Under the pieces are notes generated by a model. It did not search any database. It saw only the letters and a program-made list of their open reading frames with translations, and was not told where the DNA came from. Shown one piece after another: positions 1 to 47,799 of a stretch of DNA of 64,000 nucleotides. The stretch is taken from the NCBI GenBank assembly GCA_964017235.1, contig OZ024934.1, forward strand, positions 86,952,706 to 87,016,705, written 5' to 3'. This DNA comes from Sabellastarte sp. h YS-2021. Taxonomy: Eukaryota; Annelida; Polychaeta; Sabellida; Sabellidae. Position 1 is the first letter of the stretch; each line of letters opens with the position of its first letter. The position numbers and the translations under genes were made by a program.

Positions 1-3000
1 TCTTACCCATGCAACCATAACCTGTAACATTAACCACTAGGTCACTTGTGAACAATTGCATGCAGTAATACCAATTCCTCAAATTCCCTGATTTAAAGAT
101 GAACCTATTGAAAAAAGCACAGAATCTGGCACATTTTTTGTGCAAACTAAATTGCTCAACTAATATAAGTTTGTTATAACAGTGCATTGAATTTTAATGA
201 ATAAGCCAATCACAGATCAGTGTCTCTAATTGTTATACTGGTATATTTGGGAACAAACTGCACTCCAATTATACCCTAAATTGTGGTTATTAATTCTATA
301 TTGATGTTGTAATGCCTCTTACCTGTACATCCATCACCTGTAACATTAACCACAAGGTCCCCGTCACACACTGTGCAGATATTATATGCTGAACACTCTG
401 AGCAATTGACCATTGCATCTGCACATTCTGAAAATAACAATGAAGTTTTATTTTTTTTCTCTATGACGTAATTATCTCAATTAGCTGTACAGCACTGAAA
501 AGAAGACTTCAACATAACATTTAGTGCATTTTGTGGCCATTTAAAAAGTAAGAAAACAGAAGACGAAAGAGTTAAATCAACTTGAACAGTACTATTATTT
601 GTCTTGAGATTGTAAAATTAAACAACCCTAACATAAATCTCTGTAATAGTTAATGCATTTTGAGACTGTTCTTCAGTAATCAATTTTGTTTGAAATAATT
701 TAACTACAAGTGCAATTCCTTATTTCTAATAGTATTTCATTTTACCTATGCATCCATCACCTGTACCATTCACCACAAGGTCCCAATCACATGCTGTGCA
801 AAGGTTGTATGCTGAACATTGTGAACAATTAAGCATTGCATCTGCACATTCTGAAATGACAATGATATTTCGGTATTTTAATACAATGCAATTATATCTT
901 TCAGACTGACTGAACTTTGTACAATCACTGGTGAATTTTGCATACAAATAAAATTTAAGCATCAAGAAACAAACAGTTCAATAAACTGCACTTAAAATTA
1001 GCCTCTTTCTGGATATAAATCAAACTAGTTCCTTCGAATTGCAGGAAACATTTCTGCATTGTTCTGTATTGCATCTTACCTGTACATCCATCATTTGTAC
1101 TATTAACCACTAGGTCTCCATCACATGCTGTGCAAATATTATATGCTGAACATTCCGAGCAATTAAGAATTACATCTGCACATTCTAAAATCACAATAAA
1201 CATTGACATGCAATTACATTATTTATACATATATTGAATTTAAAACAAAGCTACAAGTTGATATATGTTTCATTTTGTTTAATGTATAATGTAGGAATTT
1301 TGAGACAAGGGATAAAAATAGCATCAGAGATGCCCATACCCCACAGCCTGGGGAAAGAGTTTTCAACACCAGGACATAGAAGTAGTAAAACAGTACAAAG
1401 ACCAGAATACTTTTAACTCAGTGTCACTTATATAAAGGTCTAAATAATGTTTAAGTAGAGAAAATAACATCTAAGAGAAAGAAAATGTATGTAAAGATAA
1501 AGTACTAAAACAAGACAATTCAATAGCAAGATGACAGCATTAATCAGTAAACTAAAAAATATGAAGCTGTAAAATTTATTAATTGGAGAATAGCTGTCAA
1601 TGGAAATAGCATAATTATGTAAAAGTGCATATAATAATTAGTTGCAGCAATCCATATATCCTTGTCATAAGAGAAAGATGTCTCAAATACGGCAGATGAA
1701 CACACTTTAGCAGATCAAAAAGGTCACACCGTGATGCACACATACATTTACATACACCCCCTAACCAATGTCCCTACCAAGTGTCAACCTTCTACACATT
1801 ATGGAATCCAAGAAATAGCCCAGACAAGATTTTTTATGTCAAGATCACTACGGCAAGGTCAAAGGTCAAATCAAGGTCACATCATGACGAGGCACACCTA
1901 CACCTCCTAACCTGTGTTCCTACCAAGTATCAACTTCCCACACCTTATGGTTTCCGAGATATAGCCCGGACAAGATTTTATAGGTCAAGGTCACTACAGC
2001 AAGGTCAAAGGTCAAATTAAGGTCAGACCATGATGTTGCACACCTACACCCCCTAACCAATGTCCCTACCAAATATCAACTTCCTACACCTTACGATTTC
2101 TGAGATATAGGCCGGAAAAGATTTTATAGGTCAAGGTCACTACGCCCAGGTCAAAGGTCAAATCAAGGTCACACCATGATGAGGCACACCTACATCCCCT
2201 AACCAATGTCCCTACAAAGTATTAACTTCCTTCACCTTACGGTTTCTAAGATACAGCCCGGACAAACTTCTTCCCGACACCCGCCCACCCGACTGCCCAC
2301 CCACCCATCCAGACACCATGGGTGAAAGCAATAACCCAACAGCCCTTAAGGGTTACAAGTGATTTACTCAAAGCCGAATCATCAAAGTAGCTATACCTCA
2401 GTTAGTTATAGAGCTAAAGCTCTGAAGATTTACCATAAAGAGAAAAAATCAAAATGTTGCTGAACAACTTATTCAACAAAACCATTGTGAGTATAACAGA
2501 AAAAAGCCATTTACTCATTTCCCGCTCTTTTAAACACAGCAAATAGCTATTACTCATTTAGCTATTAAGAAAGTGAAACATTAAATTACTTTCTATGAGT
2601 ATGGAAGCTACAAATATGTTTTAAACATTATAAGAAAGCTACTGTACCCCTTAATATTTATACATTTCTAAGCTGATTTTTTTATTATTTTGGTCAGTAT
2701 AGACTACTGGCATTAATTAATAAGTAATCCTTGTGTATGAACTTAGTTTAGATATCTTTGTTTTCTCTTGTGATAAAATTTTAAAATGTTTATCACTCAT
2801 GCAATTTTCCTATAGAATATTTTGAACTTAATTCTACTTTTTGGGGTAATTTATTTTACCTGTGCATCCATCACCTGTAGCATTAACTACAAGACCACCA
2901 TCACATGCAGTGCAAATATTATATGTTGAACATTGTGAGCAATTGGCCATTGCATCTGCACATTCTAAAATAGCAATCATGTTACTTTCCCTAAAATGCA

Positions 3001-6000
3001 ATTATGCCATTGAGACATACAGAACTGAAAACAGAAGCACAAAATTTAGTATTTGCTGCCTTATGTATGCATATATAAATTGAAAAATTAGAAAATAAAG
3101 TTAAAATAACTGGAGCTCTCATGTATGTTTGAGTTGTAAGCAATAAAACAATAAGACGTAAATGTCTGCAACTGTAGGTATATAGGAAGATCCCCTGCAT
3201 TCAGAATAAGTCTTTACTAAGTATTATTTAACCCACTTTCTTTGCATTTTTTAATTATGTTTTTGTTGTAATAAATCATACCTATGCATCCATCACCTGC
3301 ACCATTAACCACAAGGTCCCCATTACATGCAGAGCAATTATTATATGCTGAACACTGTGAGCAATTAAGCATTGCATCTGCACATTCTGAAATGATAATA
3401 AGGTAAACACATTAAAACTACTTTCAAACAACACATATGATACCCATCAGAGATAAATGTGTTACTGCTCTCAGAACAATCCTCTTACTAAGCTTGATTA
3501 GACACAGGTTTCCCAAAGTGTAGTAAGTAAGTCTGAACTTCTTTGCAATGTATCTTAAATGCGCATCCACCACCTGTACTATTAACAACAAAGTTGCCAT
3601 CACATGCTGTACAAATGTTACAAAGGTCAAATCAAACACCTACACCCCCTAACCAATGTCCCTACCAAGTATCAACTTTATACACATTACGGTTTCTGAG
3701 ATATAGCCCAGACAAGATTTTCAAACTCAAGGTCACTACGGCAAGGTCAAAGGTCAAATCAAGGTCAGACCATGACGTTGCATCCCTACACCCCCAACCA
3801 ATGTCCCTACCAAGTATCAACTTCCTTCACCCTACGATTTCTGAGATACAGCCTGGACAAACTTCTTCCTGCCACCCGCCCACCTGACCGCGTGCCTGCC
3901 CATCTGGACACCATGGGTGAAAACAATTCCCGACAGCTCTTTAGGTCTGTCGGGTAAAAACTACTAGAGCTATCAGCTGCATTGAGGTTCAAAACAACAA
4001 AACAAACAAACATGTTGATATTTTGGAACTTAATACACTCAAAATATGGTCACAACTTAGTAATATTCGATGCACTTAAAATGCAGTAAACAGATTTTAA
4101 GCTTTGTAACAATTTATGTTACCTGTACATCCATCACCTGTAGCATTAACTACAAGACCACCATCACATGCTGTGCAAATGTTATATGCTGAACATTGTG
4201 AGCAATTAAACATTGCATCTCCACATTCTGAAAGAACAATAGCTTAAGGTTATATTGGTGCTTGCAAATTTGGTTGTAAAGAAATTTTCTTTGACTTCAC
4301 TCTAAAGCTCAAATTTCTGTAGTCATTGGTGAAATTCTAGAACAGTATCAACAAGCTAAATGCAAGATTACCAAAAAAATAGTTGTCCATTGTGATTTAA
4401 TGAAGCCAAATTACCAGGAAACCTAAATTAATGAAACAAAAGTTAAACTTTTGTCTGGTGTAGTGATAAAAGAGCTCAGATTTGTGGCCAGATGAATAAT
4501 GTATCCACCAGAAAAGGACAGCTAACATTGTTTTGATGATAAATGGAATTTTTAATGAGTAAGAATTGATTAAGAACTTTTTAAGAGATCTTAGAGAATA
4601 GTCCTCAGTACCCTGAGGTTGCAAAACCTGCCCGAAATTGCTCTATCTCTTGCAGTTTTTGAGATGAATAACATTTTCCATTTCCAAAATTCAAGCAGAT
4701 GTCCGAAATGCAGAAAGGTCTTAATTTTGCAGAAGTCCTAGAGAAGAAGCCATTAGTACCCTAGGAAACCCTAACAAACCTCTAAATTGAATAATTTTGA
4801 AAATAAAAGTGACTTACTCATTGGCAAAATGTCAAAGTAGCTATTAGTCTGTTAGCATTATAGCCACAGCTCTAAAAATTTGTCATGACACAGAACATCA
4901 AAAAGTAGATAAACAACATATTTGATAAAAACCTCTAAATTGAATACTTTTGAAGTTACAAGTGACTTACTTATTAAATAACAAGCAGCTATTTCTCAGT
5001 TAGAGCTATAGCTCTAATAATTTGCAATGACACAGAGTTACAAGCAAACTTACTTTCTGTCAAAATGTCATATAGGTATTACTGAAAATATGTCAGTACA
5101 AAGATTGTGAAAAAGTAGGTGAAAAACATATTTCACAAAAATGCTCTACATTCAATAGTTTTGTAGTTACAAGTGATTTACTCAAAGCCGAATCATCAAA
5201 GTAGCTATACCTCAGTTAGTTATAGAGCTAAAGCTCTGAAGATTTACCATAAAGGGAAAAAATCAAAATGTTGCTGAACAACTTATTCAACAAAACCATT
5301 GTGAGTATAACAGAAAAAAGCCATTTACTCATTTCCCGCTCTTTTAAACACAGCAAATAGCTATTACTCATTTAGCTATTAAGAAAGTGAAACATTAAAT
5401 TACTTTCAATGAGTATGCAAGCTACAAATATGTTTTAAACATTATAAGAAAGGTACTGTACCCTTTAATATTTATACATTTCTAAGCTGATTTTTTATTA
5501 TTTTGGTCAGTATAGACTACTGGCATTAATTAATAAAAACACATGTAATCCTTGTGTATGAACTTAGTTTAGATATCTTTGTTTTCTCTTGTGATAAAAT
5601 TTTAAAATGTTTGTCACTCATGCAATTTTTCTATTGAATATTTTGAACTTAATTCTACATTTTTGTGGTAATTTATTTTACCTGTGCATCCATCACCTGT
5701 AGCATTAACTACAAGACCACCATCACATGCAGTGCAAGTATTATATGTTGAACATTGTGAGCAATTGGCCATTGCATCTGCACATTCTAAAATAGCAATT
5801 ATGTTACTTTCCCTAAAATGCAATTATGCCATTGAGACATACAGAACTGAAAACAGAAGCACAAAATTTAGTATTTGCTGCCTTATGTATGCACATATAA
5901 ACTGAAAAATTAGAAAATAAAGTTAAAATAACTGGAGCTCTCATGTATGTTTGAGTTGTAAGCAATAAAACAATAAGACATAAATGTCTGCAACTGTAGG

Positions 6001-9000
6001 TATATAGGAAGATCCCCTGCATTCAGAATAAGTCTTTACTAAGTATTATTTAACCCACTTTCTTTGCATTTTTAATTATGTTTTTGTTGTAATAAATCAT
6101 ACCTATGCATCCATCACCTGCACCAGTAACCACAAGGTCCCCATTACATGCAGAGCAATTATTATATGCTGAACACTGTGAGCAATTAAGTATTGCATCT
6201 GCACATTCTGAAATGATAATAAGGTAAACACATTAAAACTACTTTCAAAAATCTTCTTACTAAGCTGGATTAGCACAGGTTTCACAAAGTGTAGTAAGTA
6301 AGTCTGAACTTCTTTGCAATGTATCTTAAATGTGTATCCACCACCTGTACTATTAACAACAAAGTTGCCATCACATGCTGTACAAATGTTATAAGGTGAA
6401 CATTGTGAACAATTAGGCATTGTATCTGCACATTGCAGAAACAAACCGTTAAGCAACAATTTGAGGTTTTAGTTGTGAAGTCTCTGAGATAAATGTCTGC
6501 AGTGTAGATTATGTTAGGGCTCGAATAATTCAGAATAAACCCCTTATTAAAGATCATTTATCCCAGTTCTCTGAACTATAATAATGCTTAACTTTGTTGT
6601 AATGTATCTTACCTGTGCATCCATCCCCTACTTCATTAACAACAAGGTCCCCGTCACATTCTGTACAAATATTGTATGCCAGACATTGTGAGCAGTTAAG
6701 CATTGCATCTGCACAACCTGAAGAAACAATGAAATTGAGCAACATGACATCAGTAAAATTTGTGTGAACATAAAAATAAGACGTGGATCAAAGATTAAAG
6801 TCTGAGATTGAATGCAACATATATTTTGTACTTTTTATAGCGCTTAATCTCTGTCAAAGCAAACGCTAAGGCACAACATCAGAAACCAATTCAGTAATCA
6901 TTATTCCATAGACATAGTCAAGTTGATACCACTGAGACACTAGATAATTTATGTGCTAAGCAGGGAATGCTCTTTTGAAGAGATAAACTTTTTTGCGCTT
7001 TCCTGAAGCAGGCAAGACTTGTGGCAGAGCGAATATCATTAGGTAAATGATTCCAAACTGTGGGTTTGCATCAAATGCAAAGCTATGGCCGAATAGTTTT
7101 GTGGATTTATGTACTAATCGGTAGAATTGATAAACCTCCAGGAACCTTTCATCTGGACAGTTGTATCTTGTCTTATATCTTCCACAATGAATAGACAGAA
7201 CAAAGGTTATGTCCAAGCGATTAAATGACAAAGTTGTTAGCTACTAGGCCATTCACCTTCTGATATATAGACAAAGACATAATGACAGCTATTATATTTA
7301 TTTATTCATTTGGATTTTAATGTCGCTTTCAACACATTGTATAGGTCATATCACAACAGGCAGTTTTATGGGCAGAGGAAACCAGTACATATAGTTGATC
7401 AAGGCTCTGTACTGTAAACTGCCAACCAACGGCTTCCCACTTGAGGTTGGGCCGGGAAGCGAACCCCGATCTCAGAGGTGGGAGGCGAGATTGTTACCAC
7501 CCTGCCACCATGGTCCTCTACAGCTATTATGTACATTTAGACATCTTCCTATAAATTATAGTGAACAACTGCAAATTATTGCGGTAAGACATCTTACCTG
7601 TGCATCCATCACCTGTACCATTAATTACAAGATCCCCATTACATGCAGAGCAATTATTATATGCTGAACATTCTGAACAATTAAGCATTGCATCTGCACA
7701 TTCTGAAATAACAATGAGGTTATGTTATTTTCTATGTATTTAGACATACAGAGCAATTAAGCATTGTGTCTTCACATTCTGTAACAAGAAAAAGCTATAT
7801 TTTTCTTTATAATAAAATTACATCCTTACGAGGATAGAAGAGGATAGAACTGACTACAACAAATAATGACATAAAATTTGGTACACTTTGTATGTAACAT
7901 TTAAGACTTTTAAAATTGTTATTTGTCTTTTTAAGGCCAAGCTATAAAACAACCAGATCTGCCATGTATATTGGATTTGCAAACCAAAAGGAAGGCAAAT
8001 ATTAATGTCTATAATTGTTGATATATATTTAACCCATAAAATGAATTATCCCTTTACAATGACAATATAATCTCTATTTAAAATCATTACCCAACTTTGC
8101 AGAAATTTTGAATCTGCATATGGAAATCCCCGAAAAATGTTAATAAGTCTGATGGTATTTTACTTGCCATTGTCTTCACCTTATTTGGTAAAATTCGATC
8201 ACAGAAATGTATGATTGTTGCAAATGTCCACCAACTATTGATAATGTCTTGAAACTGGGAATTTCAATAGCTCTAATAAACACAGGGATCACATTTGGCA
8301 GTTCCATTGTTCTTTTGTGTACACTTTATTAATTAGTTTTCAGTCTGATTATTTATTGCAGCATAATGTCAAATTTCAAACTTCAAAAATCAAAGACATT
8401 TCAAGACATTGAAAGAAGTGGAGCTGTGTGTGGCAATCTGTGATTCTTGAAAGGTCATGTTTACTTGGAGTGCAAAGAATAGGTATGGTTTGGAGAGTGT
8501 ACCCAAAGAATCATGAATCAATGATAACTCTACTTGCCAATGGGATTGAAATCGGAGAACAGAGAGTGGGTGTTTTCAGCAACAACCCAGTGAGAGCCAA
8601 ATTGGTCCCTGGATAAACTGAAGAAAATGTAATGAAATTACCATAAAAGACTTGCCTATTTCAAAAGGAAACAAGGGTTTTGAAAAGTTCTTAATGACAC
8701 AAGGGATAAAATTAAGGTCACCAGTTGAATATGCAAAGGCTAGAATGAATTAACCAAATGGTTAAATGATGATCGAACAGTTTCTGTGGACAGCTTTAGT
8801 GATCCATTGCCAAAAGTTACCTGGATTGGGGACTGTAAAGTACGCATCTTTCACAGAGGGCAACCAAAAAGAGTGATCAAGTGCATACATTGCTTACAGG
8901 AAGAACACTTCAGATCACAGTGCACAAATGAGCAAGTTTGTGTTGTGTACAAGATGGATAGCCATAGGCCAGGAGACTCTAAATGTTTTGGTACTGCCAA

Positions 9001-12000
9001 GCAACCACACAGGACAGTTACTGTATTTTCAGGCAAAGAAAACCCTCTAAGCAACTTCTTTCCCTGTGAGCTTAGAGTTTTGGGGGATAATCCATAAATC
9101 AGCTAGACATGCTTATCAGTATGCAAAAGCACAGCAAGCAGGAAAGAATAAAATAGCTGAATTCTACAAGCAAACTCCACTTCAGGCAGATAGAAGCCAA
9201 ATCCCTGCCATACAACCCAAACTGGACAAACAGGAAAGAGAGTGTGATGTTAGAAATTCTGTCAGAAAAGATGAAGAGCTCATGAATGTAGACAATGTTC
9301 TAGCTGAAGGTGTGCCAGGAGATATGTACTGGTCAACAGGACTTACAAAAGAACAATCATTACTGGTAAAAAAGAGCAGCTGGCCAGGAAAGCTACTGAC
9401 TGAAATAAGAGAAAGTCACAAGAAAAAGTTGAAACAGAATAAACATTCAAACCTGACACAGCAAAGTGAGGAAAGTGACTCAGAATGAAAAGTATTTTGC
9501 CTGCTATGATAGAGTGAATTTTAGAATGCCTTATTATTTTGTACTAGTATTTAATTCTATTACTGTTTTTGTAAAACTGTGTAAATATGACAATGTCTCA
9601 AGAATTTAAAATACTGTCATACAACTGCCATGGGTTAAATGATTATGCTAAGAGAAGAAAGTTGTTTTCTTGGTTTGAAAGTCAAACATTAGATATTATA
9701 ATGTTACAAGAAACATTCTGTACTGACAAACTAGAGCCATATATGAGAGCAAGCTGGAAAGGTAAAGTTAAACTATCTTTGACTGATTCCTCTCATAGTA
9801 GAGGGGTGGCTATACTGTTTCATAAAAAATTTGCCGGAATTATACTTGATTCTTATTCTTTGAAAGATGGACTTATCATTGCAAATGTTGAGCTTGCTGG
9901 AGAAATGTTATCTCTGGTATCTTTGTATGCTCCTAATAATGAATCTGACAAAATAATCTTCTTCTAAAGTTAGTGATAAAATTGATAAAAACAGACTGTA
10001 ATAATTTATTTAATTTGTCATACAATGGATGGATTCCGACAGACTTAAAATGAATAGCTCAAAACTGAATTTATCCTTTTTGGTCATCCAAAGCAATTGA
10101 AAAACTGGTCTTCAAACTATTTAAAGGTGTCTGGTAAAGATCTAAGTTTAAGTGTTGATATAAGATATCTGTGAGTCTACTTAGACAGTCAACTTAGCTT
10201 TAAACAACACATTACCCACAAGTGCAAAGTAGTTTGCTAAACATTCACAGATTCAGGAACATCAGATCTGCTCTCACAAAAGAAGCCACTCATACCCTTG
10301 TTTTAGGTTTGGTTACAACACATCTGGATTTTTGCAACAGTGTACTGTTTGGCCTACCAAAAAATTTAAATCAAGAAATTGCAAAGAGTTCAAAATATAG
10401 CTGCCAAATTAGTCCTCAACAGAACAAAATATGAAAGTTCAACAGAATTCAGAAAGTAGCTGCACTGGCTTCCAATTGCTGCCAGGATTGAGTTCAAGAT
10501 AATTGTGCTAGTCTACACATGCCTACACGGAAATGCTTCAGAATATCTGCAACAAATCCCGACTCCTAAACCAGTGCTCAGAGAAGGACTCAGATCCTCT
10601 ACTTTTACAAACAATCTTTATGTACCAAAAACAAGTCGACACACATTTGCATCAAGATCTTTCAGTGTGAGCCACCCATCATTGTGGAATGAGCTACCCT
10701 ACAACATAAAGGAATGTACAAATCTGAAAATTTCCAGACCTATCTCTTTAAGAAATATTATAGATAAGCTTCCATGTAAATGTGCATTTGAAACAGGATT
10801 GTAAAAATGCACAATATCAAATGCAATATGTTATGTTTTTATGTTATGTTACAATTTAAATAATTTAATTGTCGGTGGGGATTTCAATACTTGCCTAAGG
10901 GTTATTGACAGGTTACCAGTAGCTGCTAAAAAAGAGTGTAGCACTGGATCACTCAAAAACTTGTTACAATCTTGTAACTTAATGGATGGCTGGAATACTA
11001 AAAACCCATCTAATCTAGGATTTACGTACTTTGATAAAAAAAATGTCACAGTAGACTTGACTATTTTATGATAGGTAAAAATTCATCATTTTAATTTAAA
11101 AATATACAAATTACCCAAAAAGTACAAGATTTAAATGTACTTGATCATAGTGCTGTAAAAGTAACATTTTCATTGACAACACATCAGAAAGGAAAGGGTT
11201 ACTGGAAATTAAATAACAGTGTATTAAATTTATTTAATTTGGGTTTTACGTTGCTTTCAACACTGTACAGAGTATATAAGTGGTATCTATGAGACAATAA
11301 ATTCCACAATGAATACTTACCTGAAATTAGATTCACACCAACTCTTATGGGAAATTATAAAGGTTAATATTAAAGAATTTAGTATACACTACTGCAAAGC
11401 AAAAGCTAAAATATTGCTAGATAACTGTAATGATATGCAATTAGAATTAGATACTAATAATAATGATATTTCTCATTATCTGATTCAAAACACCTGATGC
11501 TGATAGAAATACACTCCACTCATTATATTTAAGAAAGGAAGAATTAGAAATTATTTTAAATAAAAGATATGGTGATAAAGCTAAGGGATATTGCATCAGG
11601 TCAAAGGCCATATGGATTAAAGAATGAGAGGTAGGATCCAGATATTTCTTGGGGTTAAAATGAACCAAGAAGAAACCTTAATGATAAAGATAGGAAGCTT
11701 TGTGATAATACAATTTCAAAAACTGAACTTCATGAAGCAGTTGAAAGTCTTAAATCTAATAAATCACCTGGTATTGACGGTCTAACTCCTGAATATTATA
11801 AAAAATTATGGCCAAACTTAGAAAAAGCTTATGTGAATATGTTGTAGGAATCATTTGTTAAAGGCATCTTGCCAATCTCAACAGGTAAAGCTGTTTTAGC
11901 ATTAATTCACAAGAAAGGGGAAAGGGAAAAACCTACTGACTAATTATAGACCAATAAGCTTTAACAATTATGATTATCTAATCTAATCCAATCTACTGCT

Positions 12001-15000
12001 TTGCAGGTGCAATATCTTCCCCACAAAGGGGAACTCAGTGCGCTAATTTAACAAAAATCATTATCATAAGGAGAGTCGGGGGGCATTCAAGGTCAGTAAT
12101 CCGGATTTGTGGGTGTGACCAAGGGGGAAGGAAACTAAGTTTGGAAACTGGAATTAAAGAGGTGGGTTTTGAGGTGTTTCCTGAAAGATGCGGCAGAGGG
12201 GCTATTTCTTATTTGGAATGTCAAAGAGTTCCAAAGAACCAGGGAATAGTGACTGAAAGAATTGGAAAAATGTTTGATTGATTTATGAACCTTACAGTCG
12301 AAAGTGTGGGTGTGAAGGAACTTGAGTTTAAGGGTGCTTTGCCTTGTATTCCTGGAAGAGGTGTAGTGATGAATTAATTATCCTATATTTGACAGTACGC
12401 CAGTGGAGTTTTTTCAGTTGAGGGGTAATGTGAGAGTATTTAGAGGAACAGGTGACAACCCTACAGAGTGAGTTTTAGACTAACTGCAATCTTCTTAAAT
12501 CAAAATTTTTAAGTGATAACAATAGGCAATTGCAGTAGTCCAATCTGTTGCTCACCAAAGCATTTGCTAAAATAACTGATGTATTAAGGTCTAGAAGGGG
12601 ACCAATACTATTCGTACTCTGCATTGAATACATGTCCAAAGAAATTACTAAAAGTTCCAATATTTCTGGTATAAAGTTACATCAGTTGGAATCCCATATT
12701 ACCTTTTTTGCTGATGATGCAACACTTACGTTGTCAGATGAACATTCAGTGTCTGAAGCTATTTTTATTTTAAACAAATCCTCTTCAGTTTCTGGTCTAA
12801 AGCTAAACATTGCAAAGTTGTCTCCAAAAATTGATAGCACTATTTGCAAACACATGCAACAAAAATTATTTCTTAATGTTAACTTCTACCATAGAAAAGT
12901 TCTAATTAATCCATATTTAATTAAATCAAGAGATATTTATCACCTCTTTCTCAAAAAGAAAAGTGTGCGACCTTACTCTAAAAAAAAGTGGGCAAGAATT
13001 TTAAACATATCATTAAGCCACAATGAATGGTCAAATATTTACTGTAATAATTTTTATCCTATCAATATAAAAGACTGTGTGAGTTTAAATATAAAATTCT
13101 ATTAGATATCTTACCTTGTGGGTATATTGTTGGTAAATGGAATTCCATGGTTTCAAGCATTTGCAAATATTGTAATATAAAAGAAAGCTTAACTCATATG
13201 TTGTATGAATGCAACAGGATAAAACCAATCTGGGTGACATTCAGTAATTGCCTCAGCATGAACATAATGTTAAGTCATGTTATTCTGGGAATTAGAACAG
13301 GAGACTATGTAAGCTTGAATAAACATTTATGTATAGCAATTGTTGCATATTCAATTTTTTGTGTTTGGTGTAAGGCATCATTTGACAATATTCATTGCAA
13401 TACATGTGACATAAAGATTGAACTAAGGAAAAAAATTAATGTTCTATAAGGAAGTGTATCAACTTGTAGATTATAAATGCCAAAGTCAAATCTTAGAAAA
13501 TATAATTAACTGTATGCTTTATCATTTAAATTAAAGGTAATTTGTTTTCTTTTCAAAGTAAATATAATATGAAAATGTGTATTCAATATTTAAATTAAAT
13601 ATAAATACCAATTTTGAAATTGTATTGTTAAAGTTTATATTGCAGTGGTGCATATCATTTAAAACAATACAAATTGTTAGTGTTGTTGAATAAACTTAAA
13701 GATCCGAAGTCATGAGTAATTACTAAACGATTGCAAAAGACTACCTAATGGGAAATAAAATTATGTTATTAGCATCAAACTTATGCTGTGTATGATGTTC
13801 ATAGTTAAAATAATATGAACACAAAACATTGAATGAAGATGCATATGTATTGTATTGTATATAATATTAGGTGTATTATGTATCTTTGTTTCCTCAATGC
13901 TTGCGGCTCTAGATAAATGTCAAAATGTATTGTTGAAGCATTAAAAAATGTCTGTCCACTAATATTTTGTGTAAAACTGGCTGGTCGGCCTTCTCTTACA
14001 CCTGAGGCTGTCCCCACTGCAGATGGGAGTTTTATGGCTGCCCAGCCAGATGTAAAAATATTTTTGTCTTTCATACATTATATTGATAGTTGTTGTATTT
14101 GTCTGAAAATGAAAACCATGAAAAGTTTCATACTGTGTATGAATGACACCGTAAGGGGAGACTGATGGTGGGTTTACTACCCTCGCCAACCCAGTTCCTG
14201 ATGCACTGTGTTATAAAATGGTAAATAAATTGATTTGTGAAAAAAAACTATTGATAGACAGTTTTACATTTTGACTGCCAATTTCAGTCGCGTGGCAAGT
14301 TATGACACCAGGCAGTACTGTGCTCATAATAAGACCCATGCTTAGTATATGTTAATTCAATTCCTCTGAATTCTTTAAAGACACAATTCTGCATTTTGTG
14401 TATACATTGTATCCATTACCTGTACCATAAACCACAAGGTTCCCATAACTTGCTGTGAAAACATTGTAATTTATTTATTTATTTGGGGTTTAATGTTGCT
14501 TTCAACACTGTATAGGTCATATCACGACGGGTAGTTTTATGGGCAGAGGAAACCAAGGTTCTGTACTGTAAACTGCCGACCATTGGTAAGAAACTGCCGT
14601 ATTTCTCGCACAGGGCAGGGCTTGAACCTCCAAACTCAGAGACGTGAGTCAAGTGTGTTACCACTGCACCACTGTGGCCCCCTGTGTAAATGTTGCATGC
14701 TGGACATTGAAGCAATTAAACACTACTTTTTTTGCATTCTTCTCTAAGTGTCATTATGCCCAGTTAAATGAAGTGTGGTACATAATTCTATATTTTGTGG
14801 TAATGCATCTTTACCTGTACATCCATCACCTGTAGCATTAACCACAAGGTCCCCATCACATACTGTGCAAATATTAAATGCTGAACATTCTGAGCAATTA
14901 ACCATTGCATCTGCACATTCTGAAATAAGAATGACGTTTTATTTATTCTCTATGATAAAATTACCCCATTTAGCTGCACAGCACTGAAAGACAACAAGAC

Positions 15001-18000
15001 TGCAAGATAATATTTAGTGCATTTCTGGGAATTTAAAATGCAGAAGACGAAATAAATAAAACAACTTGAACTATTATTTGCCTCAAGGTTGCAAAATTAA
15101 ACAGCCATTGTAATAGTTATTACATTTTGAGACTGTTCTTCAATAATTAACTTTGTTTAAAAGCTTTTAACTGTAACTGCACTGAACAATTCCTCATTTC
15201 TATTGTATTTCATCTTACCTGTGCATCCATCACCTGTACCATTCACCACAAGGTCCCCATCACATGCTGTGCAAAGGTTATATGCTGAACATTCTGAACA
15301 ATTTGACATTTCTACGTGACACTCTACAACAGCGATGCATTAGTGACAATTCTTAAAACAAGATTATAGATGTACAAATTGAAAAACAACACACACAACC
15401 TGATCATTTTTGTGGTAAACTTCTTTGCATTTCTAGTTTTAAAAATAGTATCAGAGATGCTGCTACTCCATAGCCTGGAGAACAAGCATTTAACAACACG
15501 AATTATAGAAAAGATGAAACTGTATAAAGGCGAGGAGTTTTTCACAATAGGCAGTATAAGTTATATAAAAGTGCAAAAGATTATAACATATAAGAGAGAA
15601 AAAAATTAATGTAAGGACAAAATATCAAACCAGCAATTCAATAGCCATGTGAGAGTATTAATTAGTAAACTCATATGTATGAAACTGCAAAATGTTTTAA
15701 TTGAATCATTGTTGTATATCACAGGAGACAGTATCGTAAAAGTACATATAATAATCAGTTAAAGAAATCCATATATCTTTGTGATATGAGAAATATGTCT
15801 CAAATATGACAGCATAAAACATTTTCACAAAGACGAATTCAAATGTTAGCCAAGGGACGCCATGATGTTGTACATGTACACCCAGCAACCAATGTCTTAT
15901 ATTTTCTGAGATTCAGCCTAGACAAAACCTTATAGGTCAAGATCTTAATGACAATGTCAAAGGTTAAATCAAGGTACCCCTGTGATGTTGCAAACCTACA
16001 TGGCCAACCAGTGAGCCTACCAAGTATCAGCTTCCTACATCTTGCTGTTTCTGATGTATAGCCTGCACAGAATTGTAATGGCCAAGGTCACTATGGCAAG
16101 TTCAAAGGTCAAAGCAAGGTCACACCATAATGTGTCACACCTACAAACCTTAATCAATGTCATTATAAGGTATACAATTCCTGCAACATACAGTTTCCCA
16201 GTTATAGAGCAGACAAGATTTTAAAAGGCAATGTCAGTACAGCAAGGTCAAAGCTCAAGTCAAGGTCACAGCATGACGTTGTAAACCAACACCACCAACC
16301 ATTATGACTATTAAGTATTCACTTCCTACACCTTACGGTTTCCAAAATGTAGTTTAAACAAGATTTTAAAATTCAGGGTCATTATGGCAAGGCAAATCAA
16401 GGGAACACCATGCTGATACACACCAACACACCCTAACCAATGTCCATACCAAGATAAAGACCAAACACCTTGTGGTTTCCAAGATATAGTAGAGACAAGT
16501 TATTAATCTGAAGGTCACTACATAAAGGTCATATCAAGGTCACACCATGATGTTGCACACCTACACCCCAACCAATGTCTCTACCAAGAATCAACTTCCT
16601 ACACCTTATAACTTCTGAGATACAGCCTGAGATTTTATTTCTGGTGTCAACTGCTCATCTGCCCACCAGTGCCCGACGACCCACCCAGCCAGATGCAACT
16701 GATAAAAATAATACCAGCACAGGCTGTGGGGTAAAAATGAAATCACGTTGTGTACTAAAGGATGGCCATAAAGCTGTATACGAATTTTAATCAATACAAG
16801 CAAACATTGACCAACATTTACAAGTGTTTATGCCTATTACCATAAACAACACCTATGATAAGCACTTTGCTATGTATCATTTGACCTGCTTCCCCTTGAT
16901 TGTAACAAAACAACTCTTCATTTTGGAGTTAATGCCTCTTACCTGTGCATCCATCACCTGTAGCATTAACCACCAGCTCACCATCACATGCTGTACAAAC
17001 ATTATATGCTGAACATTGAGAACAATTGAGCATTTCTTCCTTACATTCTGAAATAGCAGTGAGGTTATGTTCCGTCATCAAAGCACAATTATACAGATGA
17101 AAAAAAATATAGAAATTTTATCATTTATTTTGCAACAACACGGGCATCTCAAGTGAAATAATAAAATAATGTACAAACATGTTGGCTATAAATTTGTATT
17201 TAGAGCAATTATACCTTGATATAAGTAATTGCTGATATATTTTTTCAATAACTGATACAGAATAAGCACCTAACCATTACACCCCACTTTAATGAAATGC
17301 ATAACTCAATCCTATATTTTGAGGTATTAAATCTTACCTGTACATCCATCACCTGTAGCATTTACCACAAGGTTCCCATCACAGGCTGTGCAAACATTAT
17401 ATGCTGAACATTGTGAACAATTAAGCATTACATCTGCACATTCTGAAATGAAAATCAGGTTATTTTATTTCCCTTACAGTGTAACGGTCTTTGTATAGAT
17501 TGAACTGACACATCTGAGATTGGAGTTTGATTCCAGGCCCCACCTCCAGTGGGAAAGCTGGTAGTTCCTTGCCATTGGCCAGTACAGAACCTTGACCAAC
17601 TGTATGTACTAGTTTCTTCTGCCCTTCCAACTACACGTCAAAACAAAAATGATAAGGTACTAAGCGTGACTTAAAACACTAAATAAACAAATAAACATGC
17701 CAAACTAACAATAAATGTACTCACAAACTTTCAGTGTATTTTGTAAAGATGCAGAAGACAAACAGTTAAAACTCAAGTTTCTTGTGCATTCAGTTTGTTA
17801 TTTTACAGTAGACATCTGTGTCTGTGATTGTGGATATGTTACGGGCAATCTGTGTAACCAGATATTACTTAATCACTGAACATTTCACTTATTTCGTGAA
17901 ATGCCTGAAGTATTTAGGCATTTTGCGAAATGCCTAGGCATTTCCTGTAATGACTGAAATATAAGTTTCAGTGTTACACAGATTGCCTAAACAGGTGTTT

Positions 18001-21000
18001 GAGATTTCAGGCAATCTGTGTAATCATCTTTTTCAAGTATCTTTTTGATAGAATATGATTATTTCTTGCTGTATGCAATTCAAGATGTAGTTTTAACTAA
18101 GTAACAATTAAGGAAGATATATTTTGACATATTTCATACATTTTTGCATAAGTGAGTAAATAAACAGTTTTACTACATAATCATTAATAATGATACATTT
18201 CATACTTATTCTAATTTTACTTGTAAGAAGGGTACTATGTTTACAATATGTGGGCTGGGGCTTCTTTAATTATATCAAATACTTAAACTTTGAGATTTCA
18301 AGCCGTCTGTGAGACCATCTTTTAAAAGTTTTATTGATAGGATGTGTTATTTCTTGCTGATAGAAGCAATTCAAGTTGTAGTTTTAACTGAATGGCAGTT
18401 AATTAAGGTATATTTTTCTATCTCTCATACTTTTAAATAAATGAGCATTTTTGCAGTGTGATCAGTAATAGTCATACATTCCATACCTCTTTTGTCTTTT
18501 CATTTAGTTGCAAGAAGGGCAGAATGTTCAACTGTTTTTATTTTTATTTCAAAAGAATATGTTTTCTGGTCTTGTTAGGTGTGTGTGTTTGGGGGGGACT
18601 TTATTAATTATATGAAACAAATACTGTAAAACTTTTATGTTAATCCTGTTAGATGAAATAAGCTTAACTGCAATTAGGACTCCCAAACCTTTTTAGCATA
18701 CATTCACTCACCTGAGCTAGTTTCACATAAATATTTTGCACAAATGTCCCCAATGAATGGTACTAGCAGCTTTGATGTATGGCATAATATTTTATGTGAA
18801 AACATCAAAGGTGCAAGACCCTGAAGAAGGATTTTTAGTTACATCAGTAATATTTTAGTTACAGCAATATTTTAGCTTTAAATAACTGATATAATTCCTT
18901 GGAAAGACAGATTACTAATATATTACTCAGTAAAACTTTTGAAGAGAAATTTAAAACTGACCTATTCAAGAAACATTAAGCTGATAAGAAAGTTTTGATA
19001 CCAAGGAACAGTATACTCCAAGTCAGAAAACAAAGAATTAAAACAATCAGTGTTCCCATGCACATATAATGACATGTAAACAGTAAAACATTCGGACTTA
19101 AATTACTGTAGTTATATGTTACAATCTTATTATTTTATTTTATTGTAGTGGCAAGTATTATACAATTTATAGAGGGGCCACGGTGGCAGAGTGGTAACAC
19201 TCTCGCCTCCCACCTCTGAGGCCGGGGTTCGATCCCCGTCAAGGCCCTATGTGGGAAAGCTGGTAGTTGCTTGCCGTTGGTCGGCAGTTTACAGTACAGA
19301 ACCTTAGCAAACTCTATGTACTGGTTTCCTCTGCCCTTCCAACTACCCATCGTGATGTGACCTGTACAGTGTTGAAAGCGACGTAAAACCCCAAATAAAT
19401 AAAAATAAATAAATAAATATACAATTTATAGTTACTAACAATAAACACAAGAAAGTATGAGTCATTTTAAGTTTAATGATATTTTAGGTATTGACAATAC
19501 ATTACACAAAATATAATCTAAAGAATATCGGTCAAATTTAATCTACATATATTAAATTTTAAAATTAAAAGTAAATAACTGAATCCCATAAAAAGTTCTG
19601 TTATCAAAAAAACTTTTTAAAGACATTCTATAGATTCTAATAGGTATGTCATTTCATTGATCATAAATGTAATAATTATTTCATCAGGTTATAAATATTG
19701 ATTAATAGGCACATAACTATTAATATCTGGAAGAAATTTTTCAAGCTCATTTTATACGCACGACAATAACATAGAAAATGACATCTATCTTCAATCAGTT
19801 GATCAGAACAAAGTAAACAAATTCTTTATTTCAGAGGTTTCTCTATAATACGTTCCTGCTTCTACTTGTAATGGTAACATACCTGTTCTTACTTGTAAAA
19901 GAAGGGACCTTTGGGATCTAGTTGATTTAAATAAAAAAATCTTCTACATTAATATCTTGTTTATAGTTTGTGTAGTTTAGTGTACATTTTGTGTTCAGTT
20001 CTTTACAATTGTAACAATGCTGCAGGCTGTTGGTAATGCCTCTTACCTGTACATCCATCAGCTGTAGCATTAACTACTAGACCACCATCACACGCAGTGC
20101 AAGTATCATATGCTGCACATAGCGAGCAATTAGGCATTGTCTCTGCACATTCTGAAATAAGAACAATGTTTGACCATGTATTATTGGGTGCATTTTGTAT
20201 AAATATAAAATCTGAGAATGTAGAAGACATTTAAAGAATTATAGATCTTATGTCCATTTAAACTTGCAATTACACATGAATGGCTGTAATTTTACATACA
20301 CTTTGAGACTAAATGCACACAAAATATGCAAATTACTAAGTTCCAGTTACCACGGTGTCTGCGTATTGAACTAAACATTTTGAAACATTTTATAGCATTA
20401 CATCCTACATTGACATTTTTATGCACTGAAAGAAACCTCTTAGCTTTTATTATCAGGTTTTATGGTGTTATATCTTACCTATGCATCCATCACCTGTAGC
20501 ATTGACCACAAGGTTTGCATCACAAGAAGTACAAACATTATATGCTGAACATGCGACACAGTTAGGCATTGCATCCTCACATGCTAAAATGTTAGTGAGG
20601 TTATGTTATTTCTTTGTCATCCATAATCCTATATCTGCATTGTAAATCAACTGCTCTATTTCCATTACAAAGTATTTCAGGGCAGTTTGTTTTCTATATA
20701 ATTTTTTTAATGTATGTTTAAGATATTTACAAAGTACAAGTCACGGTGAAAAAATATATATTGACAAACAATATCAAAGAAACAAATACACTAAATTATG
20801 TGATCACTTCATAAATATTAAACAAAAAAATAAAATGTATTTATCTACGAAGGTTAATTTTTCATCTTTCAAATCACAAATATTCACCATTTAACTAAGT
20901 GGACATAAAACCAAACTTGTATCTTTATCCATCTTTTGATGATACTCACATAAGCATTGGAGTTTGTCTTGGCTAAGAACAGCTTCCCCCTCACAGGAAA

Positions 21001-24000
21001 GACATTCATTTTGAATAATTGAAGGGTCTTCAGATAACTCACATGAACTGCACAGGTCTATCTCACTGCAAGCTTGAGAAAAGATTAAAACGTTTTATTA
21101 TAGGAAAAAAGGGTAATAATGTAATGCTTTTCAATAAAATATGAATTGAAATAATTATATTCGGCATTATTCAAAATAATAAGCGGGGGTTACAATGATT
21201 ATTATTTCAGTTTTTTTAAATAACTTTGAGAATGAAAGAGCATACACTTCATTCCTTATAATGTAAACACTCCCGTACATTGTCGGACTCTCTGAGAAGT
21301 CTAAGTTAATTGTAGACTTTAAGCAGTTATGCGCATTCATAATAGTTGAGCTTTCTACCAGGCTTACTTGTGGCAAGTGTCCATATTGCAGGGTTTGGAC
21401 ACGGCCCACGAGTGTACCTCAATCCTGTGTTCACGCATCCTTTTGCCCCCACATTGAAATGAAGCTCTGTGGAGTCGTCTTCTGCTAAGTACACTGGGAG
21501 ACCTTGTGACAATACATCATAAATGGGCTGGTATAAGACAGTGTCCGGGTTGACAAGAACAAATGGAGTGCTCTCCGTTGGATTAACTTCCCATCCGCTT
21601 CCTTTAATGTACACATATTCTATGCTACTTGATGTGACGACAGAAAGCAACATCCGACCTTCAAAACAAAAATTAAGAGGAACATGTAATAAAGATACAA
21701 CTAGTGTATGTTATGTAGTAGTTAAGATTAAGTTTGTTAAGAATGCAACTTGTACTGATAGTTTGTACAAGTTATGACTTTCTGGCTAGATCCATTTGAT
21801 TAAAAATAAATTGGCTGCTTTTATGTGATCGTGATGAATACAATTTTATAAAAGCTTGGTTTTTAATTTTAAGACTTTTAAGATAAAAGCATACAAGTAA
21901 GAATGTCAACACACAGAGTGGAGGTGTGGATATTTAATTATACCATAAATAAATTTTTTATTGATATTCTATTTAGATCAAACTTTCATTAATATAGAAC
22001 ATATTGTAAATTAAAAATATACATATTATCACACAAATATTACCCAATATACAATTTTAAATGACCCATACGATAATGATAATTGTAAGTCTAGCCTTAA
22101 CAAACTATAATATTTTACAAAGAAAAAATAATAATAAAGTCTGTAATTTCCGATTGGGAAAGATGATAATAGTGAGCTTTATTCCCAGGTCGTGAGTATA
22201 TGTGTTTTACAGAAGATCAATTTCTGGTGGAATTAGTTGTTCTCATAAACTCTGCATAAAATAATCAAAACCTTTCAGATTGCATTATAATCAGACAGTA
22301 TCAGATTGCCCACCACATAATTATGAAGGTTTACCAACAGGATGTCACAAATACAGATAGCAAAATGAGACTCAAGTCACATAGAACAAAACCATAACGT
22401 GGCTACTCAGTTGAATTAAATTATTTTACATTTATTTACAAGGTACTGGAAACAAACATACGTGAAGGTACTTCCGTTTCAGGTGAAATTCGTATAGTGC
22501 CACACATATTCAGGTTTGCAGTGAGTGTCAAGTCCTGGCTGAGACATTCCGACCCAGCTTCATTGTAGAGATGCACATCTGGCCCTGGAAAGACAATTTA
22601 AAAAGTTACTCATGGAACAATTGTGTGTGGTCAGTGAAAACATATCTGGAAAGTTTTTAAGTCTGAATCTTATGTTTCTCCCATGCATAATTCCGGATGG
22701 CAAACTGATGAAAGATTTTGAAACTTGATCAACAGCAACAACATCTGAGGGTTTCAAAGAACTCAGAAATCATTTTCACTTTGACCAAACCCATGTCAGT
22801 GAGTGTCAAAACTCACACATGAAATTATGGGGAAAAAACTATTTCACCCACCACTTTATGCACAAGTTGCACCTGTGCAATCGATTGAAAACCTAATCAA
22901 TCAAAGCAGCTCACCCGTCGAATGAAAGGGGAGCTGCTTCGACTGATGTGTTCAAAATACAAAACAAACAAATTTGAAAAAAAAAACACATTATTTTTGT
23001 TCTGGATAAACAAAGCTGAAAGGGGTTTTGGTCTACTAGCGAGAGCCGCAAAGCCATCATAGACACCAGAAGTACACTGAGGCAGGTTAATTGAAGTACT
23101 AATGCAGCCCATTGCTGCTTAACTTCAGTGATAAGAGACGTAGTCATCACACTATGCCACAATTCATGAAAGTCCGGAGACAAAAAAAAAGAAAAAAAAT
23201 CTCTAGAAGTACGAGCCTCGCTAGAGCTCATGCTTAAAAAAATTGGTCAACAAAAGTTAAGGCTTCCAACATGATCCTGACAACCATGATTCATAAAGAC
23301 TGGTCGTAACAGCAAGCGCTGATCATTCTTAGAAAATAATCGATTACCGCTAGTTTTCACTTTTGGCAAAATTACAAGGCCTAAGTTTTATAGGAAGATA
23401 AGTCAAATCATGAGAAGAATGGACCAAGATATACTTATAACACCCTAATGGTCAGTTTTCACTGTATTGTCACCAAAAGGTCTTAAGTGATCAATTAGAA
23501 AGGAATGCTCATTTATACATGTTTAAAACATAGGACGAGAATCTACAATCGCCTAAATATACTCGCTGACTTTAACCAGCGAACAGATGTGCCATAAACC
23601 AATAAAGTTATGCTTGGGAAGGCATTTTTAAGGAGGTCATGTGACAAACTTATTCTGGTGGAACAGGGGTGTAAGGCTATGGTCACACAGATCCTTGCTG
23701 TCTTAACAACTCGTATTTGAATTGTAGTCCACGAGTTGCCCGGTAAATGGATCTTGTATGTTGGTAATGCACGTTTAAAAATGAGCTGCACTGCATAGCT
23801 ATTCCTCTTGACCCCACTCTCCTTCACCCCTCACCCCTCTGTCTTCATCCAATTCGTGAGAGGACATAGCAGGTTTTTCAAACATTTTTATTTCAATCAG
23901 GTGCGTACTAAAATAGTTATTTGTGTTGATACAAACATGTCCTGCCCAAATACATATCTCAATAGGGCCCTTGTCTATGCTGTCCTTCCGCGCGAAACAC

Positions 24001-27000: not shown

Positions 27001-30000
27001 GGTTATAAATGTGCAATGTCATACTGTGACCTTAGTCTGACCTTTGACCTTGACTCTGTCAAAATGTTTTCTACAGAAACATTTCAAACATATTTCTCTC
27101 ATGACAATGATATATAGATTACTGCAACTGATTTATTACCTCCACCAAGGAAGTATCATTTTTATAACGGGGGCCATGGAGGCACAGTGGTAACACACTC
27201 GTCTCCCACCTCTGAGATCAGAGTTCTAATCCTGGCCGGACTTCAAGCACGTAAGTGGCTTGCCCTTGGCCAGCAGTTTACAGTACAGAAGCTTGACCAA
27301 TTATATGTACTTGTTTCCTCTTCCCTTCCAACTACCCGTCGTGATATGACCAATGTTACAGTGTTGAAAGCGACGTAAAACACCCAAATAAATATTTTTA
27401 TAACTGTCTGCTTGCCTCTTTGTTTCCTTGTTGTTAGCAGGATATTGTAAATACTACTAGTTGGATCTTCCTGAAAAGAAATCAGAATATGTGTCCACCT
27501 TAGATCCTGTTAAACTTTTAGAGTGATCTGGATTATCATCCGGATACAAAAAAAAATAACTTAGATTTATCTATTTACTTATTATTACATGCACTCTCCC
27601 AAGTACTCTGGTTATAGGTAATTCTACCTAACCGTTATTTCCATTGACAACAATACTTCAATTAATAAATTTTAAAGCTTCACAACTTTTAGTTTACCAA
27701 TTAATGATTTGATATTGCCTTGTTTTGATACTTTGCATACATTTTATCCCTCTTACTTATTTGTCTTGCACATTACTATAGCTTACAATGCAAGTTCTCT
27801 ATGTAATGTTGACCAATGCTATTTCCCCAGACTGTTAAACTTTATTAAAAGTGATGAACAGAAAAATAAAAATGTTCTAATAAAACACCCAAACATAAAT
27901 ATATGTTTATATTTGTAATTATACAGCCAACACACAAATTTTTTTATAATTGAAGTACTTGAAGACACACCACTACACAAAATACTTGCCAAAATAGGCT
28001 CAAAATTTGGTCAGTGTCCTTGTGTTACAGTCTATATATAGTGAACTTGAAACAGCTGGGGGTTCAGTCAAGTGTGACATTTTTTTTCCAAATAGACCCA
28101 AAAACTGATTCAAGGGTTTTGGTCAATTAGAGACAGAAAAAGTAATATTTTTAATATTTGCATAAATATTGGGGAATTAATATTTGGCATAGTAATAAAC
28201 GGATAACACACCTATTATTTGAGGTATTAACATTGAAAATATATGAAATACTCTTTGTGTTATTCAGGTTCCAAGTAAACAATTAACCAAAATTAGACCC
28301 ATAAACTGATTCATGCTTCTACCCCTGTAAAAAGTTGAAGTATCCCTTGACTTTTTTATATTTAACATATGTCTTACATTGACAAATCATTCATGTATTA
28401 GATCTGCTTGCTTATTCCTTTGATGTAGATTTGTGAAGCACCACGTGAGTAATCTTTGGATTGGATATTCACATGTTATAAGGTAATTACATAAAATACG
28501 TTTGATCATAACAAAGATCAAACTTGATAGGATGACGTCTATCTGAATATTATTGTACCTCATTTCTATATCAATGATTTATATTTTAAATAATGTCCAA
28601 ATTATACCAATAATTATTTCTCAAGAATGGGGCCATACCAAATAAGACTAGTAGAGAACGTTATAACAGATAATTATGAATTGTTGTTGGGATTTTGATA
28701 TGCAGATTCCAAATGTTATCCTAATTTGTGCATTGATGTTCATTAATTTGCTTTTTTCTTGATAAAGTTTATTATTACTAGTGTTTGAGTCAATGCACAT
28801 TTAATAAACAAAAATCCGCACAATAATACAAAGGATATTGTGATATCTACTTTAATATGTACAAAGTTGTGGTCATGAGAGGATCTCATGAGCACATCTT
28901 GTTATATGGTTGTTACTAGAAGATCTCGTTAGCATGCAAACTTGCTCCAAGTCTTTGCATTTGTATCCATCAGTAACCTGAACAGTTAAGTTTAAATTGG
29001 AAACTTACAGGAGTTCATTATACCACAAGCATTCAGGATTAAGGGGTATAGTCTCAGAAAAAAACTTATGTCAGGGCTGTGGTTCTCCAAAAGTCATGCA
29101 GTACCCATATATTACACAGAAACAAAAGGACTTGGTGAAAGTCTGGTTAGCATGACTTAATTATTATGCAGTGATCACCGAAAGATGTGGTGACAGCCAC
29201 TTATTTGGGATAACCAAATAATGTGGGATTTACTAGTTGTTGTTTTTTTTGTTGCAACCACGAGATGATGTGGTGAAGACAAGATGAAGTGGTGATCGCA
29301 AATCATGTGGTGCTCATGACTTATCTTGTTGTGATCACCAGATGATATAATTATTGCCATATTTTCTTGTGCTCACCACATTTGTTTCACCTCGGTCGTT
29401 TCCCAACGGCCAAATTATTTATTTGGCCTTTTCAAAACCTTACATGAACCTGATTAATGAAGTGCTGCTAAAACCTTTAATACATGTACTTATTATTATT
29501 ATTACCTCCGCCAAGGAGATTATGTTTTCATGTGAGTTTGTTTGTTTGCTTGTTTGTGTGTTTGTCAACAAGATAACTCAAAAACTTATGGAGGGTTTCG
29601 ATGAAATTTTCAGGATATGTCTGCAAAGGTAAAAGGAAGAAATGATTAAATTTTGGAGTGATCCAGATCACTATCTGGATCTTCTGGATCCAAGAAATGT
29701 AATTTTTAAAAACAGATCGTCTCAAAACGTTATAGATGGATTTTGATGAAATTTTCAGGAAATGTCCTAAATGGGATAAGGAACAAGTGATTCGATTTTG
29801 GGAATGATCTGGATCACTGTCTGGATCATCTGGATCCAGGCTGTCAGATAATTTTAGGATGGATTTTGATGATATTTTTAGGATATGTTAGAAATGGTAA
29901 AAGGAAGAAGTGGTAAAAGGAAGAAATGATTCAATTTTGCGAGTGATCCGGATCACTATCTGGATCTTCTGGATCCAAGAAATGTAATTTTTAAAGATAA

Positions 30001-39617: not shown

Positions 39618-39876
39618 TTTATCTGTTGATTTATAATTCGTTTTAAATCTCTTATTATTTGTTTTACGTCGCTTTCAACACTGTACAGGACATATCACGA
39701 CGGGTAGTTTTGTGGGCAGTGGAAACCAGTACATACAGCTGGTCAAGGTTCTGTACTGTAAACAGCCGATCATCGGTAAGCAACGGCCAACATTCCCACA
39801 TAGGGTCTGGGGGTTTGAACCTCCGCCTTCATAGGTGGGAGGCGAGTGTGTTACCAATGCATCACTGTGGTCCCCA
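39618..39876 (-). mobile_element. Family 1 SINE with 13-bp target-site duplication
   Basis: TTGTTAGTGTTAG at 39605-39617 and 39877-39889. The 3' tail is followed by a short unmatched stretch up to the left duplication. Confidence 0.88.
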
Positions 39877-39889
39877 TTGTTAGTGTTAG

Positions 39890-47788: not shown

Positions 47789-47799
47789 TATTGTTCAAG

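Follow-up and report, generated by a model that had tools for sequence, protein, structure and literature searches.

The 64,000-nucleotide window analysed here (C8:86952706-87016705 in the 1.79-Gb genome of the annelid Sabellastarte sp. h YS-2021, C8 being the chromosome that bears the main locus) contains the upstream part of a locus that probably encodes one or more extracellular mosaic glycoproteins. Their predicted order is a stalk built from an array of furin-like (FU) repeats, then a Sushi domain, then an ephrin-receptor-like domain. The array lies on the minus strand and consists of 105-bp exons, each coding for one module with six cysteines. Downstream parts are found to the left of the window and are given in negative window coordinates.

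Within the window, region 1-21072 carries 19 aligned copies of the 105-bp unit. Sixteen of these are intact, that is, 105 bp long, in phase 1-1, bounded by AG and GT, stop-free and with six cysteines. From upstream to downstream, intact modules 1 to 6 are located at 20479-20583, 20047-20151, 17338-17442, 16943-17047, 15219-15323 and 14815-14919, modules 7 to 11 at 7598-7702, 6613-6717, 6103-6207, 5682-5786 and 4123-4227, and modules 12 to 16 at 3282-3386, 2860-2964, 1080-1184, 746-850 and 323-427. Neighbouring module exons repeatedly lie about 395 to 432 bp apart. The three broken copies are a decayed module with stops and without splice sites (14405-14509), an open one that has lost both splice sites and cysteine 6 (6330-6434) and a truncated one (3559-3663). 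A profile search of the window revealed two further remnants, at about 8-46 on the window edge and at 7741-7779 (the first 13 residues of a module), bringing the number of decayed copies in the window to five. The pattern C-x6-C-x2-C-x5-C-x2-C-x12-C was matched 16 times in a six-frame search of the window, always inside an intact exon, and not once across 50 mononucleotide-shuffled windows. A preliminary description, made from the letters of the window, had reported 16 intact phase 1-1 exons of one spacing together with a 123-bp relative, as well as recent duplication and decay, and all of this was confirmed. It had also placed the variation in the first six residues and in the loop before cysteine 4. 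Variation does occur there, but the most variable residues (at least four residue types among the 16 modules) are 3, 5, 7, 11, 17, 20, 24 and 29, so it is not confined to these two parts.

Three predicted phase 1-1 exons precede the array on the minus strand. The first (22462-22584, 123 bp) is open, flanked by AG and GT and joins in frame; the second (21368-21658, 291 bp) was obtained from the exon scan. Neither contains a known domain or gave a Pfam match. The third is the 123-bp relative (20950-21072), a divergent six-cysteine repeat with cysteine spacing 5-2-12-2-12. In the predicted gene model, the 19 exons join into 739 stop-free residues with 106 cysteines. The window exons had no match in NCBIfam, and among exons that end in phase 1 none passed the threshold of a signal-peptide scan. 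The preliminary description had set its upstream limit at 38662. This is the ATG of a 45-bp frame (38618-38662) that ends at a GT in phase 0 and has no direct phase 1 join, and the limit could not be confirmed.

Searched against the genome, the consensus module gave at least 41 matches, all on C8 among the matches listed. For a locus-wide profile search, 80 kb to the left was added to the window (144 kb together). The module profile found 55 places: 44 are intact exons, one is a full-length copy that lacks the GT donor and 10 are partial copies. Three of the 10 partial places proved to be complete divergent exons, giving locus totals of 47 intact and eight not intact modules. The part left of the window contributes 28 array-type modules, the three divergent ones and three more decayed copies. 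The array of symmetric exons with one disulfide-type module each is thus larger than first described.

Further downstream, the array leads to a divergent FU exon, then to a Sushi exon and to two exons that form an ephrin-receptor-like domain. This downstream block is present in three successive copies (about -9437 to -14306, -15871 to -22360 and -32873 to -41170). The first copy has 29 array modules before it, the second has one and the third has 14, plus one divergent module each. The Sushi exon is in phase 1-1 and scores 30.6 bits against a Pfam cut-off of 20.7. The Pfam cut-off was passed by the Sushi domain in three of three blocks, and likewise by the ephrin-receptor-like domain. When the two ephrin-receptor-like exons of the first block were joined, the score rose to 40.1 bits (E 3.2e-10), which supports a splice between them. 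In the exons tested, EGF, VWA and CUB domains were not detected above cut-off. Two conserved exons sit between the Sushi and ephrin-receptor-like parts in all three blocks and are 60 to 91% identical to those of the third block. The first is at about -11923 to -11747, -19506 to -19330 and -35150 to -34971, the second at about -13219 to -13022, -20121 to -19936 and -38061 to -37861, all left of the window; no Pfam family scored above cut-off in the copies scanned. Since the array leads into Sushi and ephrin-receptor-like exons that score above cut-off, an extracellular mosaic protein is, judged from sequence, the most likely product.

Candidate glycosylation sites were also counted. In the 16 window modules, sequons occur at residue 8 in 15 modules, at residue 28 in 13 and at residue 17 in three; some are of the N-C-S type. 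The window total of 31 compares with an average of 7.6 and a maximum of 15 in 1000 shuffles, and that of a set of 45 C8 modules (70) with an average of 19.7 and a maximum of 35, also in 1000 shuffles. Together with the downstream Sushi and ephrin-receptor-like exons, this enrichment supports the earlier suggestion of a surface or secreted protein; the recognition or adhesion role proposed along with it stays speculative.

Comparison between the modules shows purifying selection. The pooled ratio of nonsynonymous to synonymous substitution (dN/dS), compared between modules and not between species, was 0.35 for the window modules (120 pairs; codon bootstrap 0.21 to 0.64) and again 0.35 for the 45 modules (990 pairs; 0.20 to 0.56). 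Tree counting gave 0.40 for the 16 window modules. By region, the 45 modules showed 0.37 for residues 3-8 and 0.59 for loop residues 10-17. In a per-codon test on the 16 modules, which has small per-codon power, none of the 35 codons reached p < 0.05 (lowest: residue 29, 0.054). In the most recent duplicates, three of three exon differences change the residue, too few to weigh. Diversifying selection, as proposed in the preliminary description, is therefore not supported by these comparisons. Moreover, all 47 intact modules keep the six cysteines and phase 1-1, and synonymous sites differ by 37% on average among the 45 C8 modules; retention of the cysteines despite this divergence requires long purifying selection. 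The same figures bear on whether the locus could be a decaying relic, made of pseudogenes or of exon copies that are not expressed. The decayed copies, of which the window has five and the part to its left three, and the transposable elements inserted in introns would fit such a relic, but every copy that keeps frame and splice sites also keeps its six cysteines, and each of the three downstream blocks has domain exons with open frames. We therefore regard a relic as very unlikely.

The module is, by its profile relationship to R-spondin FU repeats, a furin-like repeat; the preliminary description had not been able to assign it to a named family. The relationship emerged with a profile of 23 modules, hand-picked with near-copies omitted: five from this locus, eight of ten from an array on chromosome C14 and 10 of 11 from one on C19 (both described below). 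Against solved structures, its 11 best matches were all R-spondins, with R-spondin-1 at E 4.2e-8 (best single stretch 1.3e-4), compared with 0.041 for the best non-R-spondin match and 0.10 for a ZZ finger. Intermediate sequences were provided by two unnamed tandem-repeat proteins on ENA contigs, P0001 and P0002. The joined window exons matched P0001 at E 8.6e-7 and P0002 at 5.5e-4, the only hits up to E 1 among 1371 candidates. P0001 in turn matches R-spondin-2 at E 2.1e-5, and P0002 reaches an R-spondin only at E 0.73. Compared with the repeats of both proteins, the module profile gave 94.6% probability and a score of 30.3, beating 100 of 100 column-shuffled controls (maximum 27.1). In a two-sequence database, it matched P0002 at 1.7e-6 and the best P0001 repeat at 4.5e-5, with no match to the whole P0001 protein. 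Twelve repeats of these relatives fit a loose search pattern, two of them with the exact window spacing. The range C-x3-6-C-x2-C-x5-C-x2-C-x10-12-C, taken from the relatives seen in this analysis, covers 16 of 16 window modules and 11 of the 12 repeats, the twelfth having x4 for x5. A mixed profile of six window modules and 10 of the 12 repeats reached R-spondin-1 at 2.7e-5.

Two other family assignments were rejected. The joined array matched the staphylocoagulase repeat (Pfam 5.5e-15, 55 bits) and the BMC domain (1.1e-7, 32.1 bits), both above cut-off. The best stretches were short (15 and 35 residues), near-alike copies sum weak scores, and single modules matched weakly (staphylocoagulase repeat best E 0.11, 3/16; BMC best E 0.025, 1/16); for these reasons neither was retained. 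A 560-residue protein made of modules alone retrieved nothing at E 0.001 among 495 candidates, and six peptide patterns found no match in viral contigs.

Several observations weigh against an FU-array mosaic protein. In its alignment with R-spondin, the 23-module profile spans no more than the four central cysteines. A profile of just the 16 window modules reaches R-spondin-1 no better than at E 5.4, after a ZZ finger at 0.041, and PF15913 (Furin-like_2) is not among the Pfam matches listed for these modules. Over the 23 modules, Pfam is undecided between Furin-like_2 (four modules, weakly, best E 0.0028), A2L (six, 0.00045) and ZZ (four, 0.002). According to PMC4926470, an R-spondin FU repeat consists of three beta-hairpins in a ladder, and the repeat pair has a rod module. 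The AlphaFold model of a single module is poor (predicted local distance difference test score, pLDDT, 63.6); it has two helices, a misfit for such a ladder, and two short strands, and its comparison with 23 PDB chains, which gave no fold match, was uninformative. At the level of the locus, no signal peptide, start, membrane segment or gene end was found. The upstream exons of the window occur once in the 144 kb (tblastn, E up to 0.05), except that the 123-bp exon weakly matches an array module. Thus, the three blocks may belong to one large gene or to a set of tandem genes.

The ZZ and A2L matches raise the alternative of an intracellular repeat, ZZ or zinc-ribbon like, in which C-x2-C-x5-C-x2-C would hold zinc. 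Indeed, the finger that tops the window-only profile is that of Sequestosome-1, and the A2L zinc ribbon matches nine of the 16 window modules (best E 0.00044). However, the zinc matches shown span 16 to 20 of the 35 residues and omit cysteines 1 and 6, which are equally invariant, and the wider profile puts R-spondins more than six orders of magnitude ahead of ZZ. Where a cut-off was shown, the scores also fall short of it (A2L reaches 18 of the required 22.9 bits in the first module, and ZZ about 10 of 21.4 bits in the joined exons), and both the sequons and the Sushi and ephrin-receptor-like neighbours indicate a secretory route. A zinc-binding repeat is consequently the least probable explanation and can be given hardly any weight beside the FU repeat.

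The history of the array was followed through its duplicated segments and introns. Two segments on the minus strand, 2352-3623 and 5166-6394, each containing a pair of intact modules and a fragment of a broken module, are 93.5% identical (22 mismatches and 61 gap columns in 1281). The module pairs (6103, 5682) and (3282, 2860), named by their start positions, lie within this recently duplicated block of about 1.28 kb, and their introns are 99% identical. The pairs (15219, 14815) and (746, 323) share a common intron at 85%. Of the four couples that these pairs would predict, the exon tree recovers three (bootstrap values 89 to 94) and places the fourth with module 20047. When flanks are included, the strict limit is passed by three couples, the exception being 15219 with 746. 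Adjacent C8 modules are slightly more alike than the average (81.7% versus 79.5% at the DNA level; none of 2000 permutations as high). Once the two recent pairs are set aside, the identity of introns over aligned bases is 69.0%, barely more than the 65.6% obtained after shuffling, and five of 28 intron pairs have z under 3. After this shuffled control, the idea that introns and silent sites drift alike was dropped.

In a comparison of 14 of the 16 exons (one copy of each recent pair dropped), the first ~18 intron bases past the donor are more alike than the rest, with consensus GTAAGATnnATTACnACA. These bases could be a splicing element, or reflect shared descent. The former would suit an isoform generator, in which alternative exon inclusion yields different module sets per transcript and hence a diversified recognition molecule; all exons being symmetric, any subset keeps the frame. 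But beyond ~20 to 30 intron bases only scattered columns are alike, and the purifying selection between modules, with no codon positively selected, does not suggest diversification. An isoform generator therefore seems unlikely, though less so than a relic.

The longer array introns contain a 146-bp minisatellite, dispersed repeats and a broken long interspersed nuclear element (LINE). The latter (about 9575-13102, plus strand) is situated in the intron of 7.1 kb that separates module 6 from module 7; its endonuclease piece (E 4.4e-7) is above cut-off and its reverse transcriptase piece (4.4e-6) below. Minisatellites are found at 1753-2265 (146 bp), 16328-16589 (137 bp) and 29580-30113 (139 bp), the first two being related and both in array introns. 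A dispersed repeat of about 230 bp has at least 11 copies on both strands (7290-7520, 14470-14690, 19174-19412, 27164-27402, 30599-30837, 36616-36845, 39655-39887, 47570-47791, 55735-55960, 56995-57224 and 59009-59242). It resembles a short interspersed nuclear element (SINE), with a tRNA-promoter-like stretch by eye; the tRNA scan found none in it.

FU-like modules are also present on other chromosomes. A two-module query gave matches on C8, C14, C1, C19 and C4. Outside C8, five places had E up to 0.001 (three on C14, one on C1, one on C19) and the others up to 1, the C4 matches appearing only at E above 0.005. They lie at C14 85.83-85.93 Mb, C19 54.38-54.40 Mb, C1 17.92-17.94 Mb and C4 60.22-60.36 Mb. 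An exon scan identified 11 exons in 20 kb of C19 and ten in 20 kb of C14. Twenty of these 21 exons are 105 bp long with spacing 6-2-5-2-12, and one is 99 bp long with 6-2-5-2-10. No such exon appeared in four control scans (opposite strands of the C14 and C19 regions; both strands of window 24001-60000). The 45 C8 modules share on average 72% of their residues, compared with 44% inside the C14 and the C19 locus each and 40 to 43% for modules of different loci. The C8 array thus seems to have expanded, or to have been evened out, more recently than the C14 and C19 arrays. In a module tree across loci, poorly resolved with its few columns, the last two C8 modules group among those of other loci.

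The remaining observations concern sequences outside the array. A retroelement at 60445-63968 (plus strand) has two long open reading frames of 361 and 783 residues. In the 783-residue frame, matches to reverse transcriptase and RNase H-like domains are weak and do not reach their cut-offs; a relative 95% identical to this frame lies on an ENA contig of 24.8 kb. The exon scan gave 70 candidates over both strands. Upstream of 22584 and below this retroelement, the top minus-strand candidate (32669-32755, score 14.8, phase 2-2) encodes a glycine run and was not accepted; its score equals that of two accepted exons. By eye, a stretch at 23094-23150 (minus strand) looks like a piece of 5S rRNA of the kind that 5S-derived SINEs contain; it has no Rfam match, and Rfam and tRNA scans of the window found nothing.

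Compared with known systems, the modules have their core C-x2-C-x5-C-x2-C in register with R-spondin-1 FU2. The first loop has six residues in the window modules and four in FU2, and R-spondin-1 has 10 residues before cysteine 6, where the window modules have 12. Up to 29 similar FU copies form one array here, whereas in R-spondins a thrombospondin type 1 repeat comes after just two FU repeats; the arrays of 29, 1 and 14 lead to Sushi instead. P0001 and P0002 also have tandem C-x2-C repeats, two of the eight fitting repeats of P0002 having the exact window spacing, but carry several repeats per reading frame, far more diverged, and P0002 contains DUF4215. SVEP1 and SCUBE are animal mosaic proteins with Sushi and ephrin-receptor-like domains. 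In domain content, they share Sushi or ephrin-receptor-like extracellular modules with the present locus and differ from it in its FU exon arrays and, in the exons tested, in the lack of EGF, VWA and CUB above cut-off. R-spondins are secreted, N-glycosylated proteins, and N-glycosylation of human R-spondin 1 at Asn137 aids its secretion (PMC4926470); the window modules carry sequons, and their product may likewise be secreted. PMC8001218, a paper in which the word furin does not appear, describes symmetric class 1-1 exons as the standard modules from which extracellular proteins of animals are built. The present exons share the phase 1-1 symmetry and the extracellular type of module, and differ by massive tandem multiplication within one locus. 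A parallel in exon structure is found in Tetrahymena. There, leucine-rich repeat (LRR) genes have arrays of 90-bp exons, equal in length and phase, with one repeat per exon, a number altered by ectopic recombination, and retrotransposons nearby; cysteine-rich GFR genes are among the seven commonest species-specific groups (PMC6564038). That system differs in being a ciliate one, in its LRR module and phase 2 introns, and in having more than 1,000 LRR genes in most species (same source). Literature searches, several of which covered only the top 8 to 10 matches, found no paper describing such an FU exon array by title or abstract start. The elements are thus known singly, but the literature searched did not contain a locus that combines them in arrays of 29, 1 and 14 modules. 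The preliminary description had named, as something that would speak against it, a known repeat family with the same exon structure; half of this applies, since the family can now be named but no such array turned up in that literature.

Altogether, these results suggest how the locus may work. The array exons would be spliced together into one stalk, in which FU repeats stack, as in R-spondin, into a stiff N-glycosylated rod; by analogy, many repeats in line would give a long, stiff stalk. On the model of R-spondin FU2, cysteines 1 and 3, 2 and 4, and 5 and 6 would be disulfide-bonded in each module. The likeliest use of the rod is as a spacer or adhesive stalk. Unequal crossing-over would alter module number without breaking the frame, and the best reading is that the length of the rod, more than its sequence, turns over via duplication of symmetric exons. 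We propose more tentatively, and with somewhat less than even confidence, that rod length is a rapidly evolving trait, changed by crossing-over of one- to three-exon blocks while the modules are kept by purifying selection, and that module counts may differ between individuals.

The variation between modules that had first been read as diversification is better seen as the residue of purifying selection. One genome shows class 1-1 arrays at several stages of growth and decay: some copies are nearly identical, others form older pairs and others are dead. Its three related blocks differ widely in module number and stand beside more diverged arrays on other chromosomes. If the proposal is true, the locus would parallel, in an animal, the exon arrays of ciliates, with length rather than sequence as what evolves; and should individuals differ in module number, it would become possible to measure how selection acts on the length of the stalk.

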